Below, piece after piece: positions 22,229 through 34,007 of a DNA stretch of 64,000 nucleotides. Origin of the DNA: Archaeoglobaceae archaeon. Lineage in GTDB: Archaea > Halobacteriota > Archaeoglobi > Archaeoglobales > Archaeoglobaceae. Positions within the stretch are counted from its first letter, which is position 1; every line of letters starts with the position of its first letter. The stretch is from positions 1 to 64,000 of the forward strand of contig JALVJV010000016.1 of assembly GCA_027028145.1 (NCBI GenBank), read 5' to 3'. The position numbers were made by a program, and so were the translations under genes. Under the pieces are notes generated by a model. That model was not told where the DNA came from. It did not search any database and worked only from the letters and a program-made list of their open reading frames with translations.

Positions 22229-22592
22229 ATGTCTAAATTTAAGTTGGTTTTTGTTACTCTAATCATCGTAGTCCTATCAGGCTGTGTTACGTTTGATAGC
22301 TAAGATAAACAGCAGAGCGAATTGTTACGACGTATCGGTTGAATCGTCTAAGGTTGGATTTGCAAATGTTAGCGTTTGCGTTTTTTCTGGCGTTTCAGCC
22401 GTTCGGTGTTCTTCGGCGAGCTCGAGAAGAGCACCGATGTCAATAGATTTTTCATTTACGATCAAATCAAACGGAACTGTTTTGATCTATGCTACATGCA
22501 ACGATTTTAAGCCCGAAGATAGGGATTGGATTATGACGTTCAAAGTAAGATGGGAAAACGTTCTTCAAAACTACCTTCTAACGATCGCGTAA
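22229..22592 (+). pseudogene. small lipoprotein gene, frameshifted
   Basis: An ATG at 22229 encodes a lipoprotein signal MSKFKLVFVTLIIVVLSGC with lipobox LSGC, but the frame stops after 24 codons (TAA at about 22301). An overlapping plus-one frame continues as AKINSRANCYDVSVESSK and stays open to 22592. Dropping one base in gatagctaag would join them into about 120 residues. The BRE/TATA-like CGAAAATTTTTAAAAT at 22193-22208 fits a leaderless start at 22229, so the gene start is real. The function is unknown. The end overlaps the converging ccmF by 22 bases. Confidence 0.62.
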
Positions 22593-24337
22593 ACGCCACC
22601 GACTGTTAGCAGTATCATGCTTATCCAAACGAAGGCTATGAGGGGAACTATGTGAATTTCGAAGTAGAATCCGTGCATAAAGCTCGGCATTGCAACGTAG
22701 ATGTCTTTAAAGGGTGTTGAGACTATGTCCACAACGGAGACTATTTTGTCCGGACGCATTATCTTATACACGTAATCCATAGGATACAGGATGTATTCCC
22801 TACCACCATACTTCAGCCAGAGCTTTGCTACGATAACGAACTTGTCCGGCTCTTCTTTCATTCCGACGTCCAACAACTTGACTTCCAGCGAATTCAGCTT
22901 AGCCTGCTGTCCAATATCGAGCGTAACATGATAGTTCTCGCCGTAAACCCAAGCACCTATGGCACCTATAAGCAGACACATGACTCCGATGTGAGCAACG
23001 TAGCCGCCGAGCCTTCTCCCGCTGAGGTTTATATCAAAAACGTGTCCAACTATTGCAAAAGCGCATATACCAACGACGATGCTCAGGATTACAGCTTTGC
23101 TCAAAGCGAAAACGATCAACCCGGCGAGAAATCCCGAGACAAAGCTTACTTTCAGCCTATTCAACAGCTTTTCCTTACTTGCCATCCAACCCATCGACGC
23201 ACATACGCCGGAAAGAGCTATTATCACGGCCATCAACGGAAGTTCGATCGATTCGTAGTAACTCCTACTCACGGACACCGAGATTTGGGCTAAAGTTCCG
23301 AGCAAGACCGTGAAAGTCGAGATGAGCAGAAGTAGAATATTCAGAAACATCATATACTCCCTGCTGAAAGTCGGAATCTGATTTGAGATTAGGAAATCCC
23401 TCCTTTTCATCCATATTCCAAAAGCCAGCAAGGTCGAGGAGATTATCAGCAGAAGATATGCCTCTCCAACGGGATTCTCGGCGAAGGCGTGAACGGAGTT
23501 TATGATTCCGCTCCTCGTGATGAAAGTTGCGAGAATGACGAGGTCGAAGGATAACACGGTTAGCCAGAAGTTCATGTTTTTTAAGGACTTACGCCTTTCT
23601 TCCACGACTATTCCGTGTAAAAGGGCGGTTACGGTTAGCCAAGGCATGAGTGAAGCATTTTCAACCGGATCCCAGCCCCAGAATCCACCCCAACCCAAAA
23701 CCTTGTAAGACCACCACATTCCCAAGAAGATACCCAAAGTCAGAAATATCCAAGTCAATAGGAGCCATCTCCTCGCATCCCTTATCCAACTTTCCTTTCT
23801 GTAAACTCCGGAAAGGGCAATTGAGAACGGAATCGTCATGCTGGAATACGCTAAAAATACCACCGGCGGATGCAGAACCATCTCGATCGTTCTCAGCAAA
23901 GGATTGAGTCCGTAGCCGTTTGGGGGTGTGAAGTTCAATCGGACGAACGGATTCGAAATCGTCGCCAGAACGCAGACCAAGAACAAGAAAACCCAAGACG
24001 AAATAGCAAGGGCGAGGTTATCTCTTTTTGTGTAGTAAAATACCAGATTCATAACAGCCAAGAACGAAACCCAAAGCAAAAGCGATCCTTCCTTGCCAGC
24101 CCAAACGGCACTTATCAGGTATATCAAAGGCAGAGTGGTATCGGAATACTCGTAAACGTAGAGAACGTTAAAATCGTGAACGAGGAAGTAATAGATGAGA
24201 AGAAACAACGCAAGCAGGATCGTGAATGTATAGCCTACCAAAGCGTAGAAACCGATTTTCGATCTTTTAAGAAAACCGTAGATACTCAAAGCCGAAAGCA
24301 GAGCGGATATTATCAGCAGGATGTTGCCGATCTCCAT
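22571..24337 (-). CDS. ccmF: cytochrome c heme lyase CcmF
   Basis: Large polytopic membrane protein that attaches heme to apocytochromes. It has 588 residues from the chosen start and some 14 or more hydrophobic helices. The WWD domain WGGFWGWDPVENASLMPWL lies near residue 217, with flanking histidines in LHPPVVFLAY and in later loops. The start at 24337 is chosen because GGTGG lies five bases upstream; the frame opens seven codons earlier. It is downstream of the cytochrome b and c genes on the same strand. No CcmH or CcmG is visible. Confidence 0.94.
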   Translation of the reverse strand: MEIGNILLIISALLSALSIYGFLKRSKIGFYALVGYTFTILLALFLLIYYFLVHDFNVLYVYEYSDTTLPLIYLISAVWAGKEGSLLLWVSFLAVMNLVFYYTKRDNLALAISSWVFLFLVCVLATISNPFVRLNFTPPNGYGLNPLLRTIEMVLHPPVVFLAYSSMTIPFSIALSGVYRKESWIRDARRWLLLTWIFLTLGIFLGMWWSYKVLGWGGFWGWDPVENASLMPWLTVTALLHGIVVEERRKSLKNMNFWLTVLSFDLVILATFITRSGIINSVHAFAENPVGEAYLLLIISSTLLAFGIWMKRRDFLISNQIPTFSREYMMFLNILLLLISTFTVLLGTLAQISVSVSRSYYESIELPLMAVIIALSGVCASMGWMASKEKLLNRLKVSFVSGFLAGLIVFALSKAVILSIVVGICAFAIVGHVFDINLSGRRLGGYVAHIGVMCLLIGAIGAWVYGENYHVTLDIGQQAKLNSLEVKLLDVGMKEEPDKFVIVAKLWLKYGGREYILYPMDYVYKIMRPDKIVSVVDIVSTPFKDIYVAMPSFMHGFYFEIHIVPLIAFVWISMILLTVGGVYAIVRR

Positions 24338-24409
24338 GATTCCACCGTAAACAGCCATGTATATTTAATTAACCATTCGAATTTCGAAAAATATAAAAAA
24401 TAAGTTTAA

Positions 24410-25084
24410 TTACTTGCAGATCCTTTCCTTCCTCTTTCCGGTGATCATCGACGTTACCACTCCGAACACGAAACATGCGTAGGCGTGTATCAGCATTATC
24501 ATCAGGTAGATGAACATAACCAATCTGTGCACGGTTCTCAGTAGTTCCACTCCACTGCTCAATCCGAAGATCGGTGCATACTTGTCGGCTATCGCTATTA
24601 TCGGGTGGAAATACTGTGGCCAGTATAGGGGCAGTCCAGTCAGACCCATTATAAGCGTTAAGGCTATGTATGCCCACGGAACGGTAACTTCCGTCGGAAT
24701 TATCTTCTCCCTGTAATCACCGATCCTCGGATCGTAGCACCTCGGATCCTCGACGTGAGGCCCTATTCCGAGCCAAGCCTTAGTTTCGGCTATGAGGAAC
24801 TTTATGGAGTATGGAAATCTGTGGAAACCGAACCACTTCCATTCGTGTGTTATGAGCTGGAGGAACATGAGAACCCAAAAGAATGCAAAGACGAGTGCCG
24901 TGTATACGTGAATCTTCAGAGCGAGTTCGTAGTCACTCGGGAAGTTTATCCCCCATATTCCCCCCAACCTGAGCCCGGTGATACCGACTATCCATCCGGT
25001 TATAACTATGCCCCAGTGCGTTATTCTGTAAAGGAGATGCTGTCTGTGAACTTCTATATACTCTCCATTACCGTGCCCACTCAT
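24410..25084 (-). CDS. cytochrome b561-type membrane subunit
   Basis: A 224-residue protein with four or five membrane helices and paired histidines for two b hemes: HRQHLLYRITHWG near residues 13-25, KIHVYTALVF near 57, and TVHRLVMFIYLMIMLIHAYA near 190-209. It resembles the b-type subunits of formate dehydrogenase, hydrogenase and cytochrome c-type quinol dehydrogenases. It directly follows the 9-heme cytochrome gene, with only two bases between stop and start, so the two probably form one quinol-linked membrane complex. Confidence 0.88.
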   Translation of the reverse strand: MSGHGNGEYIEVHRQHLLYRITHWGIVITGWIVGITGLRLGGIWGINFPSDYELALKIHVYTALVFAFFWVLMFLQLITHEWKWFGFHRFPYSIKFLIAETKAWLGIGPHVEDPRCYDPRIGDYREKIIPTEVTVPWAYIALTLIMGLTGLPLYWPQYFHPIIAIADKYAPIFGLSSGVELLRTVHRLVMFIYLMIMLIHAYACFVFGVVTSMITGKRKERICK

Positions 25085-25086
25085 AA

Positions 25087-26112
25087 CTACTCACCTCCCA
25101 TCGTAATTCTTCTCTTAAGGTAATGCAGACATATACCGGCAAGAGTTGCTCCGATTATCAATGTTCCAAGCATGCCCGAGTCTATCCATATGTTCAGAAT
25201 CGGAACCTTGAATACAAGCTTCGAAGGCGGTTCCGCGAATTCAGTGCCTTTCGGTCCGACTATCCTACCGTTGAATCCTTCAAGGAAAACCTTGCTGGCG
25301 TTTGAAGAATGACAGTCGCTACAGTCTCTCGCCTTCGGAGATATTGTGTGAGGCATGACGATTCCCACTACCTTGGATACCTTTCCGTTGTAAACCACGC
25401 TCATGATATCGGCAGGATAAAGCTCACCGTTCGGAGCTCTCAGCACGTGGAATTCGCTTATGGACACCTTGTCTATCTTACCGCTCGGAATATGGCAGTT
25501 GTAGCATGTCTGATACCAAACCGCATGACAGGCGTAGCAGGAGACGATTCCCCTGTGCAATCTGTGCGGAAGTAGGTTGGGATCATACTGCTTCGGCTTT
25601 ATTCCGTTTATCACAACACTGCTGTTACCGTGGCAGTCCAGACATCTGACCTTCACGGCATAGTAAGCCATGGTGTAGTTGTGACCGTCACCGTGAATTT
25701 CGGTGCTGTTGTGACAATCCATGCATGTCATGTTATACGTGTAGTGCACATCCGGACTCGGTCCCTTTTTTATCTTATCAACGAGATATCCGATGTAGTT
25801 AACTCCTATGTTGTGCTTGTGACAATCGACGCATGTTGTCATGTTCGGTATCTCTCTGTGAATTGGATGGCACGTAGAACAGTTTTCGATGTGGCACTTA
25901 AGACACATCTTCGGAACTGGCATGTTGAAGTCCTTTCCAGCGCCTTGATTCCACCCTATTATTATTCCTTCGTTGGTATAGTGAAGAGATTTCGTGAAGT
26001 TTTGAGCTATTTTAGAGTGACATAGAGCACATCTTTGTATATCGCTGGCATTTGCTGGAATCAAAGCTATTATCAGTATAATCAGTGGAAACAAAATTTT
26101 TAGCTTGTTCAT
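25087..26112 (-). CDS. nine-heme membrane-anchored cytochrome c
   Basis: A 341-residue cytochrome with a signal peptide at the N-terminus and a C-terminal anchor helix (IDSGMLGTLIIGATLAGICL, about residues 307-326). Nine CxxCH sites are seen: CALCH, CLKCH, CSTCH, CVDCH, CMDCH, CLDCH, CYACH, CYNCH and CSDCH. Several extra histidines can serve as distal ligands. It is followed at once by the b-type cytochrome gene; together they suggest electron exchange between the quinone pool and an extracellular heme chain. It has its own TATA box (26131-26143). Confidence 0.93.
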   Translation of the reverse strand: MNKLKILFPLIILIIALIPANASDIQRCALCHSKIAQNFTKSLHYTNEGIIIGWNQGAGKDFNMPVPKMCLKCHIENCSTCHPIHREIPNMTTCVDCHKHNIGVNYIGYLVDKIKKGPSPDVHYTYNMTCMDCHNSTEIHGDGHNYTMAYYAVKVRCLDCHGNSSVVINGIKPKQYDPNLLPHRLHRGIVSCYACHAVWYQTCYNCHIPSGKIDKVSISEFHVLRAPNGELYPADIMSVVYNGKVSKVVGIVMPHTISPKARDCSDCHSSNASKVFLEGFNGRIVGPKGTEFAEPPSKLVFKVPILNIWIDSGMLGTLIIGATLAGICLHYLKRRITMGGE

Positions 26113-26160: not shown

Positions 26161-26517
26161 TTAGCCGGACAAGGTGTATTTACTCGCACACTTGAAGAGC
26201 ACTTGAGTGGCGTGCAGTGTTCCGTTGTAATAATCGCCAACAACGACCACCTGAACACCCTCTCTGTAGTTCGCCGGCAGATGCTTGCAGAACACTTTAA
26301 CAGTAGCTTTGCCATCCGTAAGCTTGAAGTATACCCCGTTATCAGTAATAATGGTCGAATTCGGAACGATCTTTCCGACAACCTGAACGCCGTAAGCTTC
26401 TTTCTTTTTAACGAGATCAGAAACCGAAATGTATGGTGAGATGCTCATGCTGAAGGCTACTACTATTAAAACGACCGCAACGCCTAATGCCAAGCCTAAC
26501 AAAACCTTCTGATTCAT
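26161..26517 (-). CDS. ccmE: heme chaperone CcmE, archaeal CxxxY variant
   Basis: Carries heme from CcmC to CcmF. It has 118 residues with an N-terminal anchor helix and an OB-fold body. The heme-binding motif is Cys-Ala-Ser-Lys-Tyr near the C-terminus (LFKCASKYTLSG), so cysteine replaces the bacterial HxxxY histidine. This variant is known from archaea and Desulfovibrio and goes with systems lacking CcmH. The start six codons inside the longest frame is favoured by AAAGGA six bases upstream, but the longer start is possible. Confidence 0.9.
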   Translation of the reverse strand: MNQKVLLGLALGVAVVLIVVAFSMSISPYISVSDLVKKKEAYGVQVVGKIVPNSTIITDNGVYFKLTDGKATVKVFCKHLPANYREGVQVVVVGDYYNGTLHATQVLFKCASKYTLSG

Positions 26518-26636
26518 GACCAATCCTTTGGCCATTGCAATATTTTAAGTTTGTTTTGTTGCCGTCATTACATCATCATTATAACAATAAGGATTATATA
26601 AGATGCTGGACTAACCTACCTTAGAGGTGAAGGGTA

Positions 26637-28793
26637 ATGATGAAATGGATCGCTGTAACGATCCTCCTGATCATGCTAACCGTTCCGGCAGTAGCCGCGG
26701 ATGTGACGGTTACCGCAGAAAAGGGAATAGTCGGAAAGCCTACAAACTTCACTATTACTATAAACGCAAAGAAATACACCGAAACTACGCCGATCGATGC
26801 CGTCTTGGTAATAGACTGCTCCGGTTCTATGCTGAGATGGGGAAACATAATTACGGATGTCAGCTACGTGACTATTACCAGAAGCTACACGAAGGTAGGG
26901 GAATTTAAACTCGACAAACCCTCCGATGTAGAAGTCATGCTTCAGAAACCTCTCGATATTTACACACCCTATGACGAGTTCGAAGCATACATAGTTAACA
27001 AGGATACGGGTCAAACGTTTCCGATTAAAGAGGGATTCTCCGTTGTTAGATGGAACAACGTTCCTCCCGGAAAGTATGAAGTCTACGCGAGATTGATGCA
27101 CTGTTGTTGCTGTAAAGAAGATCTGAGAATATTCTGCGTTGAACTACCGCCCGAAAGGCTTACCCTCGTAAAATCCGCGGCTAAGAGTTTTGTGGATCTG
27201 CTCAAAGACGACGATAGGGTCGCGGTGGTAGAATTCACATCATACGGTTTAGATTACTGGGACTACACTAAAGTGATCGAACATCTCACTAACGACAAGA
27301 ACGATGTTAAATCAGCGATAGATAGCCTAAGCGCTTTGGATGGAACACCGATGGGATACGGACTTCAGTTGGCGATAGATGAACTGAACTACAACGGAAG
27401 AACTGACGCGAACAAGGTTATAATTCTGCTATCCGACGGATGGTGGAACACAGGACCAGACCCGATGGTTGTCGTAAACGATGCGATTGCGCACGGATAC
27501 AAGATATACACAATCGGATACGGCGGAGCGGATGAGAACACACTAAAGGCTATTGCGGAGAAGACCGGAGGAAAGTATTACTACGCGGCAAACGAAAGCG
27601 ATCTGAAGGAGATATACTCAGAAATAGCGAAGGAGATAAAGTGCGTAGGTAAGAACGCGGTTTTAAAGCTTAAGCTGACGAACGTTACGTTCGTTAAGTC
27701 AGATCCAGATTGCACGAGGAACGGAAACGTTTTGACGTGGAACGTGGGCGATCTAAAGCCCGGAACTCTGAACTTCACGGTCACCGTTGAAGCTACGAAG
27801 GAAGGAACGTTTAAAGTAGCCGACGGCTGGCTGAACTATACGGCACCCAACGGAACGGAGGTTTCTAAGAAGTTCGAGGTATACATGACATTCGTAAACC
27901 ATCCGCCTAAAATAGAGGTGTTCGGAAATACGGACATATACGAACTGGAGTGGCTCGATCTCACAATCAGAGTCACGGATCCCGACGGACATGCTGTTAG
28001 CTTGAGTTACGTAGCGCCGATTTCCGGAATTTTCGTTCGAAAGAACGCCACCACTTGGGAGCTCAAATGGATGCCGAGTAGCAATTTCGTCGAGAGCGGA
28101 ACGAGAACTTTCACGATTACGTTCATAGCCAAAGACGAATACAACAAGACGGCAGAAAAGAACGTAACTATCACGGTTCACGACAGGCAGAAGTGGTTGG
28201 TGATGTGGACCGACAAGGAGAATGCAACGGTTTACGAAGGAAACACGACATGCATAGGAGTTCACGTAAACAGCAGTTCAGATTACACCCTAACGTTCGA
28301 CGTCGAAAATGCCAGCAATAGCACATACGTAGCAAGTTTGCAGAACTTGGGTAACGTATGGATGTTCTACTTCACTCCGCAGTATGATTTCACGAACAGC
28401 GTAAAGAACGTTACAGTCGTATTTAAGGCTGAAAATAAGGAAGGACTTACAGCAAGCGCATCAGTTAATATAACGGTCAAAAACGTTAACGTCACAACGT
28501 GGGCCAAGGTGTTACCGAAAGGAGAGCTTGAAATACCCACAAAAGGTAAAATATACATCGGCGAGCCGATATACCTCAAGATAACTTTCATCAACGCCAC
28601 AGCCGGCAACGTAACCGTAAACGGCGTGGAAATCTGGAGAGACAAACTAACACCACCGGTCGATGAAAGAATAGTTATATTTGTGCCGAACGCCGCCGGA
28701 GAATACAGAATCGTCGTATGGGCTATAAACGGTAGCATCGCAACGCCTACGAACTTCGTTCCGATAGACGTATCGATAAAACCGATCTCGTAA
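26637..28793 (+). CDS. secreted von Willebrand factor A surface protein with an inserted domain
   Basis: A 718-residue secreted protein with signal peptide (residues 1-21). The VWA domain starts at about residue 53; its MIDAS motif DCSGSM is at 60-65, with Thr in GTPMG near 237 and SDG at 266-268. About 105 residues (66-172) are inserted between the MIDAS loop and the first helix, ending in MHCCCCKEDL (four adjacent cysteines at 156-159). After residue 335 come several Ig/cadherin-like beta-sandwich repeats. About 20 N-x-S/T sequons are visible. There is no C-terminal anchor. GAGGTGAAGGG precedes the start and a TATA box lies at about 26592-26602. It faces away from ccmE and converges on the second cytochrome cluster. 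Confidence 0.88.
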   Translation: MMKWIAVTILLIMLTVPAVAADVTVTAEKGIVGKPTNFTITINAKKYTETTPIDAVLVIDCSGSMLRWGNIITDVSYVTITRSYTKVGEFKLDKPSDVEVMLQKPLDIYTPYDEFEAYIVNKDTGQTFPIKEGFSVVRWNNVPPGKYEVYARLMHCCCCKEDLRIFCVELPPERLTLVKSAAKSFVDLLKDDDRVAVVEFTSYGLDYWDYTKVIEHLTNDKNDVKSAIDSLSALDGTPMGYGLQLAIDELNYNGRTDANKVIILLSDGWWNTGPDPMVVVNDAIAHGYKIYTIGYGGADENTLKAIAEKTGGKYYYAANESDLKEIYSEIAKEIKCVGKNAVLKLKLTNVTFVKSDPDCTRNGNVLTWNVGDLKPGTLNFTVTVEATKEGTFKVADGWLNYTAPNGTEVSKKFEVYMTFVNHPPKIEVFGNTDIYELEWLDLTIRVTDPDGHAVSLSYVAPISGIFVRKNATTWELKWMPSSNFVESGTRTFTITFIAKDEYNKTAEKNVTITVHDRQKWLVMWTDKENATVYEGNTTCIGVHVNSSSDYTLTFDVENASNSTYVASLQNLGNVWMFYFTPQYDFTNSVKNVTVVFKAENKEGLTASASVNITVKNVNVTTWAKVLPKGELEIPTKGKIYIGEPIYLKITFINATAGNVTVNGVEIWRDKLTPPVDERIVIFVPNAAGEYRIVVWAINGSIATPTNFVPIDVSIKPIS

Positions 28794-28853: not shown

Positions 28854-30128
28854 TTAGGGTTCGGTATACTGCGTAACCGCTTGGTTTCCTGCGTGGCACG
28901 CCGACTTACATGATCCAGAGTGATAAGCCGCTTCATGGCAAGCCATGCATATGTCACCGTGAACGAACCTCGGATAGTTAGCGGCTGTGTCGTTTATCAG
29001 GTTCTCGTGATAGGGAGCATCAAGTGGAGATGACTGCGTAGCGTTTAGGAATGCGTAATACGGATCGAGCCACCAGTATGTCGTATTTCTGTGGTGACAG
29101 GTGTAGCAGGAAACCTTCTCGGCGCAGTGAACCAAACCCTTTGCTGCTGCCGTAAACGGATTCCTCTTCTGTATTACAACACCCGTAGGCGTTGTAAGAT
29201 TTATTGTAACAGAATAATGGCATTCATCGCAGTATGTGTTGTTTACCCACGATGTATTTAGAGTAGATAAGGCTAATGAATGATACCTGTTGAAGCCCCA
29301 TCCGTTCTGATACCCCGGAGCAGTGAGGTTGTAGTCCCATCTCCAATCGTAATATATGGGAGCGTGCTTTCCGTTTATAAGTCCGAGATATATGTTTTCG
29401 TGACACTTTGAGCAGTTTATATCCTTCAACGGCAGAAATACGTGCTTACCGCTGAATATCGAGTTTTTGACGTAAGATACGTTGTATACCTTATATGTCG
29501 AGCTTATCTGAGTCAAAGTCGTGAACGTCCAGTTGAAAATATCAACGTAAATGTAATCAGGATAAGAAAAGCTTATGTTAATGGAGTAATTCGTGTGACA
29601 GGATAAGCATGCGAGATTTTCGTCTCCTATCTTCTCGCAGTAAGCGACGAACTGCTTATGCGCGGTTGCGTTGGGAATCGAGCTTATTACCGTTACGTTT
29701 CTGTAATTTACGGTGGTGGTTACGTTAAAAGCCCTCGCCGGAGGAGCGTGAACCAACACACCGCTGGCATTAACAACCCAAGCACCCTTTCCTCCGTGAC
29801 AATCCAAACAGCTCGGCACGTAAGCGGCATGAGCCTGCTTACCCGGGAAAGTTCCGCTCGAATTTGCGGTGGCAAAGGATATTCCGGTTCCGTTGTATCT
29901 GTGACAGTCTTCACATGTTAGATCCCAGTGCGGGCCGTGTAAAGCTCTCGTTATCGCCATCTCTTCGGCAACATGCTTGTGACATGCGGAACAGTTAACA
30001 TCGTTTCCGTTTCCGGAGATGTCCTTAACGTAATGACTACCTTTAATTAAGCTGACTACCTTTATGTTCGATATGAACAATCCAGCGACGGCTATAACCA
30101 AGATGAGCGCCACAGCCCATGACCTCAT
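28854..30128 (-). CDS. extracellular multiheme cytochrome c, eight CxxCH plus one CX3CH
   Basis: A 424-residue cytochrome with an N-terminal anchor or signal helix (residues 4-25). CxxCH sites are CSACH, CEDCH, CLDCH, CLSCH, CSKCH, CDECH, CYTCH and CMACH; a ninth possible site, CKSACH at 407-412, has three residues between the cysteines. At least 15 N-x-S/T sequons imply heavy glycosylation outside the cell. The N-terminal part (HY...GNGNDVNCSACH, then LTCEDCHR and PGKQAHAA) is clearly paralogous to the next gene. Its ATG overlaps that gene's stop by four bases. Transcription comes from upstream of 30829. Confidence 0.92.
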   Translation of the reverse strand: MRSWAVALILVIAVAGLFISNIKVVSLIKGSHYVKDISGNGNDVNCSACHKHVAEEMAITRALHGPHWDLTCEDCHRYNGTGISFATANSSGTFPGKQAHAAYVPSCLDCHGGKGAWVVNASGVLVHAPPARAFNVTTTVNYRNVTVISSIPNATAHKQFVAYCEKIGDENLACLSCHTNYSINISFSYPDYIYVDIFNWTFTTLTQISSTYKVYNVSYVKNSIFSGKHVFLPLKDINCSKCHENIYLGLINGKHAPIYYDWRWDYNLTAPGYQNGWGFNRYHSLALSTLNTSWVNNTYCDECHYSVTINLTTPTGVVIQKRNPFTAAAKGLVHCAEKVSCYTCHHRNTTYWWLDPYYAFLNATQSSPLDAPYHENLINDTAANYPRFVHGDICMACHEAAYHSGSCKSACHAGNQAVTQYTEP

Positions 30129-30829
30129 GACGGCTTAACCTCCGTAACGTTCTTAAAATCGGTAATATACAAACCCGTTATCTCCACTTCCGATTCGTTA
30201 ATTCCTGTTGTTGCGTTGTAACCCAAAACGACATCCTTAGCATAAACATTCATACCAGTGCTAACGTTGAAGTTCATCTTCACCTCTATGTCCGCGTGAC
30301 AACTCAAGCATGCTTCGGTCGAATCCAAGAGGAGCGAACTGTTGTTGGCTTTTGCAATCGCATGAGCTACCAACGAATTGTGAGCTTCGCAAATACCGTT
30401 GTATGTTGAGTTCGAGTAGTTGTAGGGAGATGTGACTCCAAACAACGTGACGTTAAAACCTCCAGCGTAAGGACCGGGAACTCTGGATGCTTGAGAGGCG
30501 TTTATCTGGTGGCACAGCATACATGCAACGCAGGATGCGGCATGCGCCTCCTTTCCGGGCGTTACGTTGGTATAGCTCCCGCTCACACTCGCATAGGTTA
30601 TGCTCTTGTTAGCTCTGTGGCAGTCCTCGCACCTGAGATTCCTATGAGCGCTCAACTTAAGTTCCTCGTAAACGTCCGCATGACATTTAACGCACGGAAC
30701 GTTATTTCCCGTTCCGCTTAAATTATACCAGTAGTGCTCTCCGGCAAAGAGTGAGACCGTATTGGGTAATACGATAACGCCCAAAGCGAATACGATGATC
30801 GTGATGAGAACGGCTTTACCGTAATCCAT
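30125..30829 (-). CDS. extracellular four-heme cytochrome c
   Basis: A 234-residue protein with an N-terminal membrane helix (about residues 6-28) and CxxCH sites CVKCH, CEDCH, CMLCH and CLSCH. The third sits in CVACMLCH, giving an extra upstream cysteine pair. About 12 sequons are present. The first 110 residues parallel the start of the following 424-residue cytochrome, so the pair arose by duplication. It is the first gene of the pair, and translation is coupled through the ATGA overlap. Confidence 0.9.
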   Translation of the reverse strand: MDYGKAVLITIIVFALGVIVLPNTVSLFAGEHYWYNLSGTGNNVPCVKCHADVYEELKLSAHRNLRCEDCHRANKSITYASVSGSYTNVTPGKEAHAASCVACMLCHQINASQASRVPGPYAGGFNVTLFGVTSPYNYSNSTYNGICEAHNSLVAHAIAKANNSSLLLDSTEACLSCHADIEVKMNFNVSTGMNVYAKDVVLGYNATTGINESEVEITGLYITDFKNVTEVKPS

Positions 30830-32734: not shown

Positions 32735-33373
32735 CTAAACATTAAAGCAACATCCAGCATAGCATTCTCGCGCATTCTCGAACTTCAGTATCTCCCGTTT
32801 GTGCATCGTGCAGTGGCACGGAACTACGAGTTCGTATTTTCTCAAAATATCGATTTCGCTGAATCCGTGAAATCCACCCATGACCCCCCTCACATCCCCC
32901 AAAATTTCCGCAGTTTCAAGTATAACGTCCAATCCGGGATGAGAGCAACCGGTTACGACGAAAAATCCTTCATCAAGCTCGACGATCAGAGACTGTTCTT
33001 TGATGTAACTTCCGAGCTCCCCTGTGGTGTATATCCCATCGTCAATTTTCCACATCTCCGCAACTTCGATAAGCTCGGCTTTTCTGCTTATCTCTTTTTT
33101 AAGATTCTTTGAGAACGATTGAGGAACTACGACGCAGGAGGTTCTGTCGATTACGTGATTCAATCCTCCGATGTGATCCCAGTGCTGGTGGGAAAGAAAT
33201 ACGTAGTCGAAATCATCGATTCCCGCCAGTTCCAAGTTGTGCAGAAGTATGTTTCCGTCCCAGCCGGTATCGAACAAAACCCTCACCTTTGATTCGACGT
33301 AGCATGAGAATCCCCAGCCTTCGACAAATCCGTTCTTGGCTTCGTTGTCGTAAACCACGAAGAACTCCACCAC
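32735..33373 (-). CDS. metallo-beta-lactamase-fold hydrolase (RFA-P synthase-like)
   Basis: A 212-residue MBL-fold protein with the metal motif SHQHWDHIGGL near residue 61 and further ligands in GCSHPG and GGFHG. This HQHWDH form and C-terminal VPCHCTMHK segment are typical of the archaeal group that includes dihydropterin-aminobenzene 5'-phosphate synthase-like enzymes of methanopterin synthesis. The precise substrate is not shown. Cysteines cluster at the C-terminus (ECYAGCC). It diverges from rpl40e. Confidence 0.84.
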   Translation of the reverse strand: MVEFFVVYDNEAKNGFVEGWGFSCYVESKVRVLFDTGWDGNILLHNLELAGIDDFDYVFLSHQHWDHIGGLNHVIDRTSCVVVPQSFSKNLKKEISRKAELIEVAEMWKIDDGIYTTGELGSYIKEQSLIVELDEGFFVVTGCSHPGLDVILETAEILGDVRGVMGGFHGFSEIDILRKYELVVPCHCTMHKREILKFENARECYAGCCFNV

Positions 33374-33449
33374 ATCGATTTTTCGAACCTAAAGGTTAAA
33401 ACGCTTACTCCCCGCAAAGGTTAAATAGCGAATCGGAATCTGGCAGAAT

Positions 33450-33602
33450 ATGGCGAGATTTCCAGAGGCGGAGGCGAGGCTCTTCAACGTCAAGATCTGC
33501 ATGAGGTGTAACGCGAGAAATCCGATCAGAGCTACGAGATGCAGGAAGTGCGGATACAAGGGATTGAGACCGAAGTCCAAGGAGAGGAAAGGTAAGAAGT
33601 AA
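33450..33602 (+). CDS. rpl40e: 50S ribosomal protein L40e
   Basis: A 50-residue basic zinc-ribbon ribosomal protein: [20 protein letters not shown], then [14 protein letters not shown], with four cysteines in two CxxC pairs (CMRC, CRKC). It ends in the usual lysine-rich tail. It is a single gene, away from other ribosomal genes, with a TATA-like TTAAATAG 20-30 bases before the ATG. Confidence 0.96.
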
Positions 33603-33608
33603 CCTTTT

Positions 33609-34007
33609 TCACAGGGATTCTTCATCGTAACCCAGCATGACTACCCACCACCACCTTGCCATATCTACAAGATCCCTGCTGAAAACTCCCGAGAGGTGAT
33701 ACTCCCCGTTCTTGATCGCAATCATTCCAGCGGATATCAGTTTGTTCCTCATCGCATAGAAGGACGACTTCGCCATATCGAGTTCTTCAATAGTCTTTTC
33801 CCATTCCTCCACCCGCAACGGCTTACCCATCTTCTGCCTTTCCTCAACCATCGTGACAAACTTAGCGGCTTTTAATGCTATCTCCTCCTTCCTGAACAGT
33901 CTCCTCATTAGCTCAAGGAGTGGATTCTTGGACTGAGAAATTCGGGCATTCGATGCCGAACGAACGATTATGGATGTAGATGTCTTCGGAGCGTCTTTTA
34001 TCTTCAT
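33609..34007 (-). CDS. hypothetical protein with winged-helix-like C-terminal half
   Basis: Not recognised as a named family. From the first ATG it has 132 residues; a longer frame would need a TTG start 16 codons upstream. Residues about 75-120 ([20 protein letters not shown] then [19 protein letters not shown]) look like a helix-turn-helix with a following wing, as in small archaeal regulators. It converges on rpl40e and is divergent from the glutamate synthase operon, which would be the natural target if it regulates anything; that is only an inference. Confidence 0.65.

Follow-up and report, generated by a model that had tools for sequence, protein, structure and literature searches.

A gene for a secreted VWA protein stands among cytochrome genes in a member of the family Archaeoglobaceae (genome 1.52 Mb). 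To our knowledge it has yet to be settled what anchors a cytochrome nanowire and directs it to its acceptor. The window, meaning the whole stretch of DNA that was analysed, is 64,000 nucleotides long.

Domain organization of the VWA protein

The gene encodes a protein consisting of a Sec-type signal peptide, a VWA head with a nested insert, and a beta-sandwich (Ig-like) stalk, in that order. The N-terminus, MMKWIAVTILLIMLTVPAVAA, resembles an ordinary Sec signal as judged from the sequence, and no C-terminal membrane anchor was seen in the 718 residues. The features, with their basis in brackets, are as follows.

26637..28793, + strand: secreted VWA protein, 718 aa (ATG start; ORF, Pfam, AlphaFold2 model)
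26793..26831, + strand: strand beta-1 and first MIDAS motif DCSGSM, residues 53-65 (sequence; strand 53-60 in the model)
26832..27152, + strand: insert, residues 66-172 (~107 aa), predicted beta-sandwich between beta-1 and alpha-1 (model; profile search)
27102..27113, + strand: CCCC tract, residues 156-159, last hairpin loop of the insert (sequence; model)
27153..27635, + strand: rest of the VWA domain, residues 173-333 (Pfam; residue check)
27345-27347, + strand: MIDAS Thr237 (residue check; invariant in homologues)
27435-27437, + strand: MIDAS Asp267 (residue check; invariant in homologues)
27648..28790, + strand: beta-sandwich stalk, residues 338-718 (Pfam; AlphaFold2 model)

The Pfam VWA domain (PF00092, E=2e-22) covers residues 172-328 only, that is, helix alpha-1 onward. 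The MIDAS strand and DCSGSM (60-65) lie ~110 residues upstream of the aligned part. The MIDAS is complete (D60, S62, S64, T237 and D267) and its ligands are invariant across 11 homologues in the alignment. Pfam, the residues and the model together place the window protein among proteins with a VWA fold and a DxSxS...T...D pattern. An initial annotation had given the ORF coordinates and described a VWA domain split by residues 66-172, and both were borne out by the ORF, Pfam and the model. The AlphaFold2 model of the full protein has a mean pLDDT of 86.1 and a pTM of 0.56, the latter leaving the relative positions of the domains unsure.

The stalk has a Big_9-like domain at 445-513 and 18 N-glycosylation sequons; the head has 1. 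Measured against its orthologues the gene has a dN/dS of ~0.1 and is under purifying selection.

A domain inserted between the MIDAS motif and helix alpha-1

In the model the insert is all-beta, as had been proposed. Its last strand (162-173) continues straight into helix alpha-1 (174-188), which restarts at PERLTLVKSAAKSF; the helix had likewise been expected to resume there. Folded in isolation, in a prediction from 15 sequences, the insert has 8 strands with a pLDDT of 85.4 and a pTM of 0.80. It is thus predicted to be an independently folding 8-strand beta-sandwich common to all family members.

The insert was considered as a known Pfam domain, and this was rejected since the best match among 15 members was a sub-threshold Y_Y_Y, with nothing above the cut-off. 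A search with the insert alone, one of the checks suggested in the initial annotation, points to no known Pfam family; its profile matches 11/394 genomes of the phylum. In Foldseek the insert came closest to the jelly-roll of Thermococcus Tk-SP, to GOLD domains and to the collagen-binding domain of ColG, with E-values of 2e-3 to 1e-2 and TM-scores of ~0.5-0.6. The Tk-SP jelly roll and the PPC-like ColG domain share the overall beta-sandwich fold with the insert, and no sequence-level match of the insert to PPC/collagen-binding jelly rolls was found. By its modeled fold the insert is PPC/collagen-binding-like without being a recognised member of that family.

We compared ~55 other VWA matches of bacterial and archaeal origin, and in almost every one the MIDAS motif is separated from helix 1 by 4-28 residues. 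The split of the VWA domain is real and unusual. Omega is 0.15-0.16 for the insert vs 0.07-0.09 for the VWA core, so the insert evolves at ~2x the rate of the core. It plausibly stands beside or over the MIDAS metal face, where it could cap binding; because the pTM of 0.56 leaves relative domain placement unsure, capping is something we can only infer.

Cysteine tracts in the loops

The four adjacent cysteines of the insert had been taken to close it, as HCCCCKED. The tract is indeed in the insert, and it lies in the loop between the last two strands (145-153 and 162-173) rather than at the end, in a part of the model where confidence is lower (block mean 73). A strand of 12 residues spans ~40 A. 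Going by strand lengths only, the tract probably occupies the MIDAS-distal end of the insert.

The chance of obtaining CCCC from 9 randomly placed cysteines in 718 residues is ~8e-6. Four TGY triplets in a row occur 7 times in the 1.5-Mb genome, and the only such run in frame in a credible gene is that of the VWA protein. Triplet slippage or simple expansion was rejected as the origin of the tract, since its codons are mixed (TGT TGT TGC TGT) and kept in G001, where they are identical to those of the host genome, G000. Among the homologues the tract is identical only in G001. It is CCWC in G003 and absent from G002, G004, G015, the ANME-1 copies and Methanoxibalbensis. The idea that CCCC is a conserved site was rejected because of its loss in sister species, and its loss or alteration there excludes a general function. 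The alignment indicates that the family does not need CCCC and that the tract is not the function of the insert; the cysteines may have a putative lineage-specific role, in binding metal or mineral or in forming a disulfide. That the insert or its CCCC binds heme, as raised in the initial annotation, is unlikely on the same grounds and because CXXCH is absent from the VWA protein. A conserved C61-C167 disulfide was also considered and rejected, as the G015, ANME-1 and Methanoxibalbensis copies keep C61 without C167.

Paralogues within the genus carry cysteine tracts in other loops: CGCCC in the first loop, CGCCCGCKHC-like sequence in mid-insert, and a HKHCGCCGGGCGGCGGCKCK-type tract directly before MIDAS Thr237. 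Where other paralogues have these tracts, the paralogue of G003 has Trp/Lys/Gly-rich sequence. Four loops contain 57/98 cysteines within 526/7680 residues (6.8%), an enrichment that is descriptive and carries no p-value, as the loops were picked after the tracts were seen and the sequences are related. Because the tracts recur in other loops of the paralogues, we regard the loops that bear them as probably fast-changing surface loops, and they look like a changeable binding surface.

Two of the paralogues (L038:1322-4018 and L040:9218-11908) have 22-23 cysteines and His/Cys/Gly-rich loops, which is unusual for secreted proteins of a thermophile.

It is conceivable, at somewhat less than even chances, that the tracts are neutral, the loops tolerating anything and the cysteines being disulfide-paired or free in an anoxic habitat. 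Rapid turnover and the Trp/Lys/Gly-rich loops of the G003 paralogue agree with this; the repeated clustering of cysteines in four distinct loops does not, nor do the codons, which are the same in G000 and G001. That CCCC is a metal or iron-sulfur site responsible for the protein's specific function is improbable, for although it is the sole in-frame CCCC of the genome and paralogues have Cys/His/Gly-rich tracts in other loops, it is missing from five of the sources of homologues named above, its cysteine spacing and position are not fixed, and it falls in the lower-confidence part of the insert.

The gene lies between nanowire and cytochrome-maturation operons

The genes on either side of the VWA gene are the following.

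30125..30829, - strand: tetraheme cytochrome, homologue of the A. veneficus nanowire subunit AvECN (PDB 8e5g_A, E=4e-45 over residues 1-219; four CXXCH)
28854..30128, - strand: 8-heme cytochrome, operon partner of the AvECN homologue (8e5g, E=1.8e-14, N-terminal part)
26161..26535, - strand: CcmE heme chaperone (PF03100, E=1e-13)
25087..26112, - strand: 9-heme secreted cytochrome (Pfam; CXXCH count)
24410..25084, - strand: cytochrome b561-type membrane subunit (PF01292)
22571..24358, - strand: CcmF/NrfE-type heme lyase (Pfam)

The VWA gene is on the strand opposite to both operons, the nanowire operon to its right and the cytochrome-maturation operon to its left; CcmE is divergent from it, with 101 bp between the start codons. 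A position between two cytochrome clusters had been noted from the start, and it proved correct: one cluster encodes the nanowire homologue, and the VWA gene is flanked by the nanowire and Ccm operons in 5/5 genomes of the genus, with outer flanks that differ, for example in G004. The adjoining operon thus encodes a homologue of AvECN (8e5g), while the VWA protein itself is no cytochrome. The tetraheme and 8-heme pair is conserved in several Archaeoglobaceae genera. In the nanowire operons read in other genera of the family there is no such VWA gene, so that it is not part of the AvECN nanowire locus of those genera.

The partner of the tetraheme cytochrome (the pair spans 28854-30829, - strand) is an 8-9-heme protein that shares homology with the nanowire subunit over its N-terminal 220 aa, and it could be a filament cap or base. 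Two more AvECN homologues are encoded in the same genome (G000:C13:62463-63050 and G000:C23:112721-113344), and one of these two adjoins a [NiFe]-hydrogenase-like pair (L089 6463-9203, named by eye from the sequence). Farther along the window, at 32735-33625 (- strand), adjacent ORFs of 212 and 78 aa match a single 294-aa ORF of G001 with a metallo-beta-lactamase fold, possibly a frameshift, a pseudogene or a sequencing error.

Family distribution and pilus loci

Within the genus, all five species carry the insert, with two copies each; G000 has only these two VWA copies of the family. Carriers outside the genus are one other Archaeoglobaceae genus, ANME-1, Methanoxibalbensis, two genomes of one further family, and one weak match in another. 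A Bathyarchaeota copy came from a separate scan. Orthologues in the genus are 59-96% identical. The family tree has three groups (orthologues, paralogues and the rest) whose branching order is not settled (AU p=0.29 for a genus-specific duplication).

Outside the genus the VWA gene keeps company with pilus genes. In G015 and two f26 genomes it adjoins five short genes with pilin-like N-termini, and a similar set is found in G093. Three of the pilin-like genes in f26 match DUF7287, DUF7288 and DUF7289 (Pilin_N weakly). The locus in G015 additionally has T2SSE (secretion ATPase) and T2SSF (TadC-type). In the genus, the paralogue precedes T2SSE (PilB3-like), T2SSF and a pilin-like gene. This pilin/PilB/TadC adjacency was seen for the genus paralogue, G015, f26 and G093, not for the window gene; around the ANME-1 and Methanoxibalbensis copies only short stretches could be read, and these contain no pilus gene. 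G000, G002 and G004 also possess the five-pilin locus of G015, but there it has no VWA gene. Because this locus persists without it and G000 holds only two copies, the simplest history suggested by the gene orders is the arrival of a formerly pilus-linked VWA gene in the nanowire neighborhood.

In f26, G015 and ANME-1 the gene immediately upstream of the VWA gene encodes a small secreted protein (L208:10099-10374, L120:127-360 and L035:9290-9840). It has a TSP3-type calcium-binding repeat in f26 and ANME-1, and the window gene has no such neighbor.

Co-occurrence with cytochromes was examined on the 394 genomes of the phylum used for the insert profile search. A homologue of the nanowire cytochrome is present in 61/394, and 55/61 lack the insert family. 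Outside the genus, 1/6 insert carriers has the nanowire cytochrome, with ~0.9 expected by chance (56/389). A general co-occurrence was therefore rejected. Linkage was seen throughout the genus (5/5); outside it the proposed co-occurrence was not seen (1/6), and pilus genes are found instead. The connection of the family to nanowires is specific to the genus.

Comparison with known VWA adhesins

For the full model, SpaC and Mfa5, both adhesins of pilus tips, are among the best Foldseek matches. Streptococcus sanguinis PilB has an extracellular VWA domain with a MIDAS flanked by two arms (PMC8179133). In Pseudomonas aeruginosa PilY1 the VWA domain is Cys-rich, with Cys152 important for sensing surfaces, and the protein was placed at the tip by tomography (PMC8806160). 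Both resemble the window protein in having an extracellular VWA domain that bears a MIDAS; they differ in that the window protein has an entire domain inserted where beta-1 passes into alpha-1. No Pfam match to the PilC/PilY C-terminal domain or to a pilin module was found in the window protein, nor a pilin-type signal or sortase motif for joining a pilus.

RrgA, GBS104, SpaC and Mfa5 share with it a VWA head, extra segments around the MIDAS and a beta-sandwich stalk. In Mfa5, RrgA, GBS104 and S. sanguinis PilB, the extra segments flank or cover the MIDAS (PMC7835359, PMC8179133). In the first three, ARM2 lies between the fourth strand and the fourth helix, and ARM1 within strand C (PMC7835359). 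The window insert follows the first MIDAS motif, at the beta-1/alpha-1 site, and does not match the RrgA/Mfa5-type arm position; the cell envelope and assembly differ as well.

Modular pilins of Archaeoglobaceae with a VWA domain (L023, L097 and L102) have the same split point, with ~200 residues between DxSGSM and KIDAAKIAAKTFN, and are pilus proteins. Unlike the window protein they begin with a hydrophobic segment that, by eye, resembles a class III pilin signal, and they have a PKD domain and a larger insert, and the insert profile does not match them. Together with L011, which likewise combines a VWA domain, a class III pilin-like N-terminus, PKD and ~200 residues inserted between the MIDAS motif and helix 1, they are possibly archaeal counterparts of the S. 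sanguinis modular pilin PilB.

Proposed function

We favor, with moderate confidence, a pilus-type, metal-dependent secreted adhesin with a domain-sized arm and changeable loops. A MIDAS-dependent adhesin is preferred because of the fold matches to SpaC and Mfa5, the segments that flank the MIDAS of known adhesins, and the sequons, nearly all of which are in the stalk. The protein would belong to an archaeal type IV pilus-associated VWA family, and a divalent metal in the MIDAS would let its head attach to a surface or to a partner molecule. The inserted beta-sandwich would stand beside or over the metal face. Its loops and the VWA loop next to Thr237 would form the changeable part of the binding surface, with cysteine tracts as one recurrent filling, and the sequon-rich stalk would hold the head at a distance from the cell. 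The gene in this genus appears to have left a pilus locus for its present site between the nanowire-cytochrome and cytochrome-maturation operons. From that position we infer that the protein probably serves to attach cells, or the filaments they bear, while electrons are transferred extracellularly.

Two further possibilities are sub-cases of the adhesin reading, and the confidence given to each does not exclude it. The position may be an accident, the protein still serving the five-pilin type IV pilus in trans and the cytochrome-side location having no meaning. The intact pilus locus that lacks its VWA gene, and relatives that adjoin the same pilins and have the same head architecture, are in line with such an accident. 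We regard it as somewhat doubtful, since the synteny persists across species with orthologues of 59-96% identity and rearranged outer flanks. The protein may instead be a nanowire component, dedicated to the AvECN-type filament as its tip, its cap or its anchor on the cell surface, with a Cys loop that contacts mineral or partner. In all five species the gene is locked between the nanowire and Ccm operons despite the rearranged outer flanks, its neighbor is a strong homologue of the nanowire subunit, and the genus keeps a separate paralogue at a pilus locus. Against this, 55/61 nanowire-cytochrome genomes lack the family and only 1/6 carriers outside the genus has the cytochrome, the VWA gene is on the other strand from both operons, and two species with the same gene order lack CCCC. 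A role as a dedicated nanowire component is therefore unlikely. We would give still lower odds to a pilus adhesin recruited as a nanowire attachment head, on an AvECN-type filament or its base, with a lineage-specific Cys loop binding sulfide or iron minerals or a partner cell. If true, such a recruited adhesin would give nanowires a targeting device.

In the literature we searched, with the first nanowire report (Cell 2023) not among it, neither this family nor its nanowire-side location is described. The secreted adhesin that we favor would represent a third way of dressing a MIDAS, with a whole domain between the first metal motif and helix 1 and with changeable loops. This agrees with earlier proposals that the arms of bacterial pilus adhesins evolved independently. 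With one of its copies fixed in a nanowire cluster, this family of pilus-type adhesins is a concrete and testable candidate for the part that may anchor or aim nanowires in archaea.
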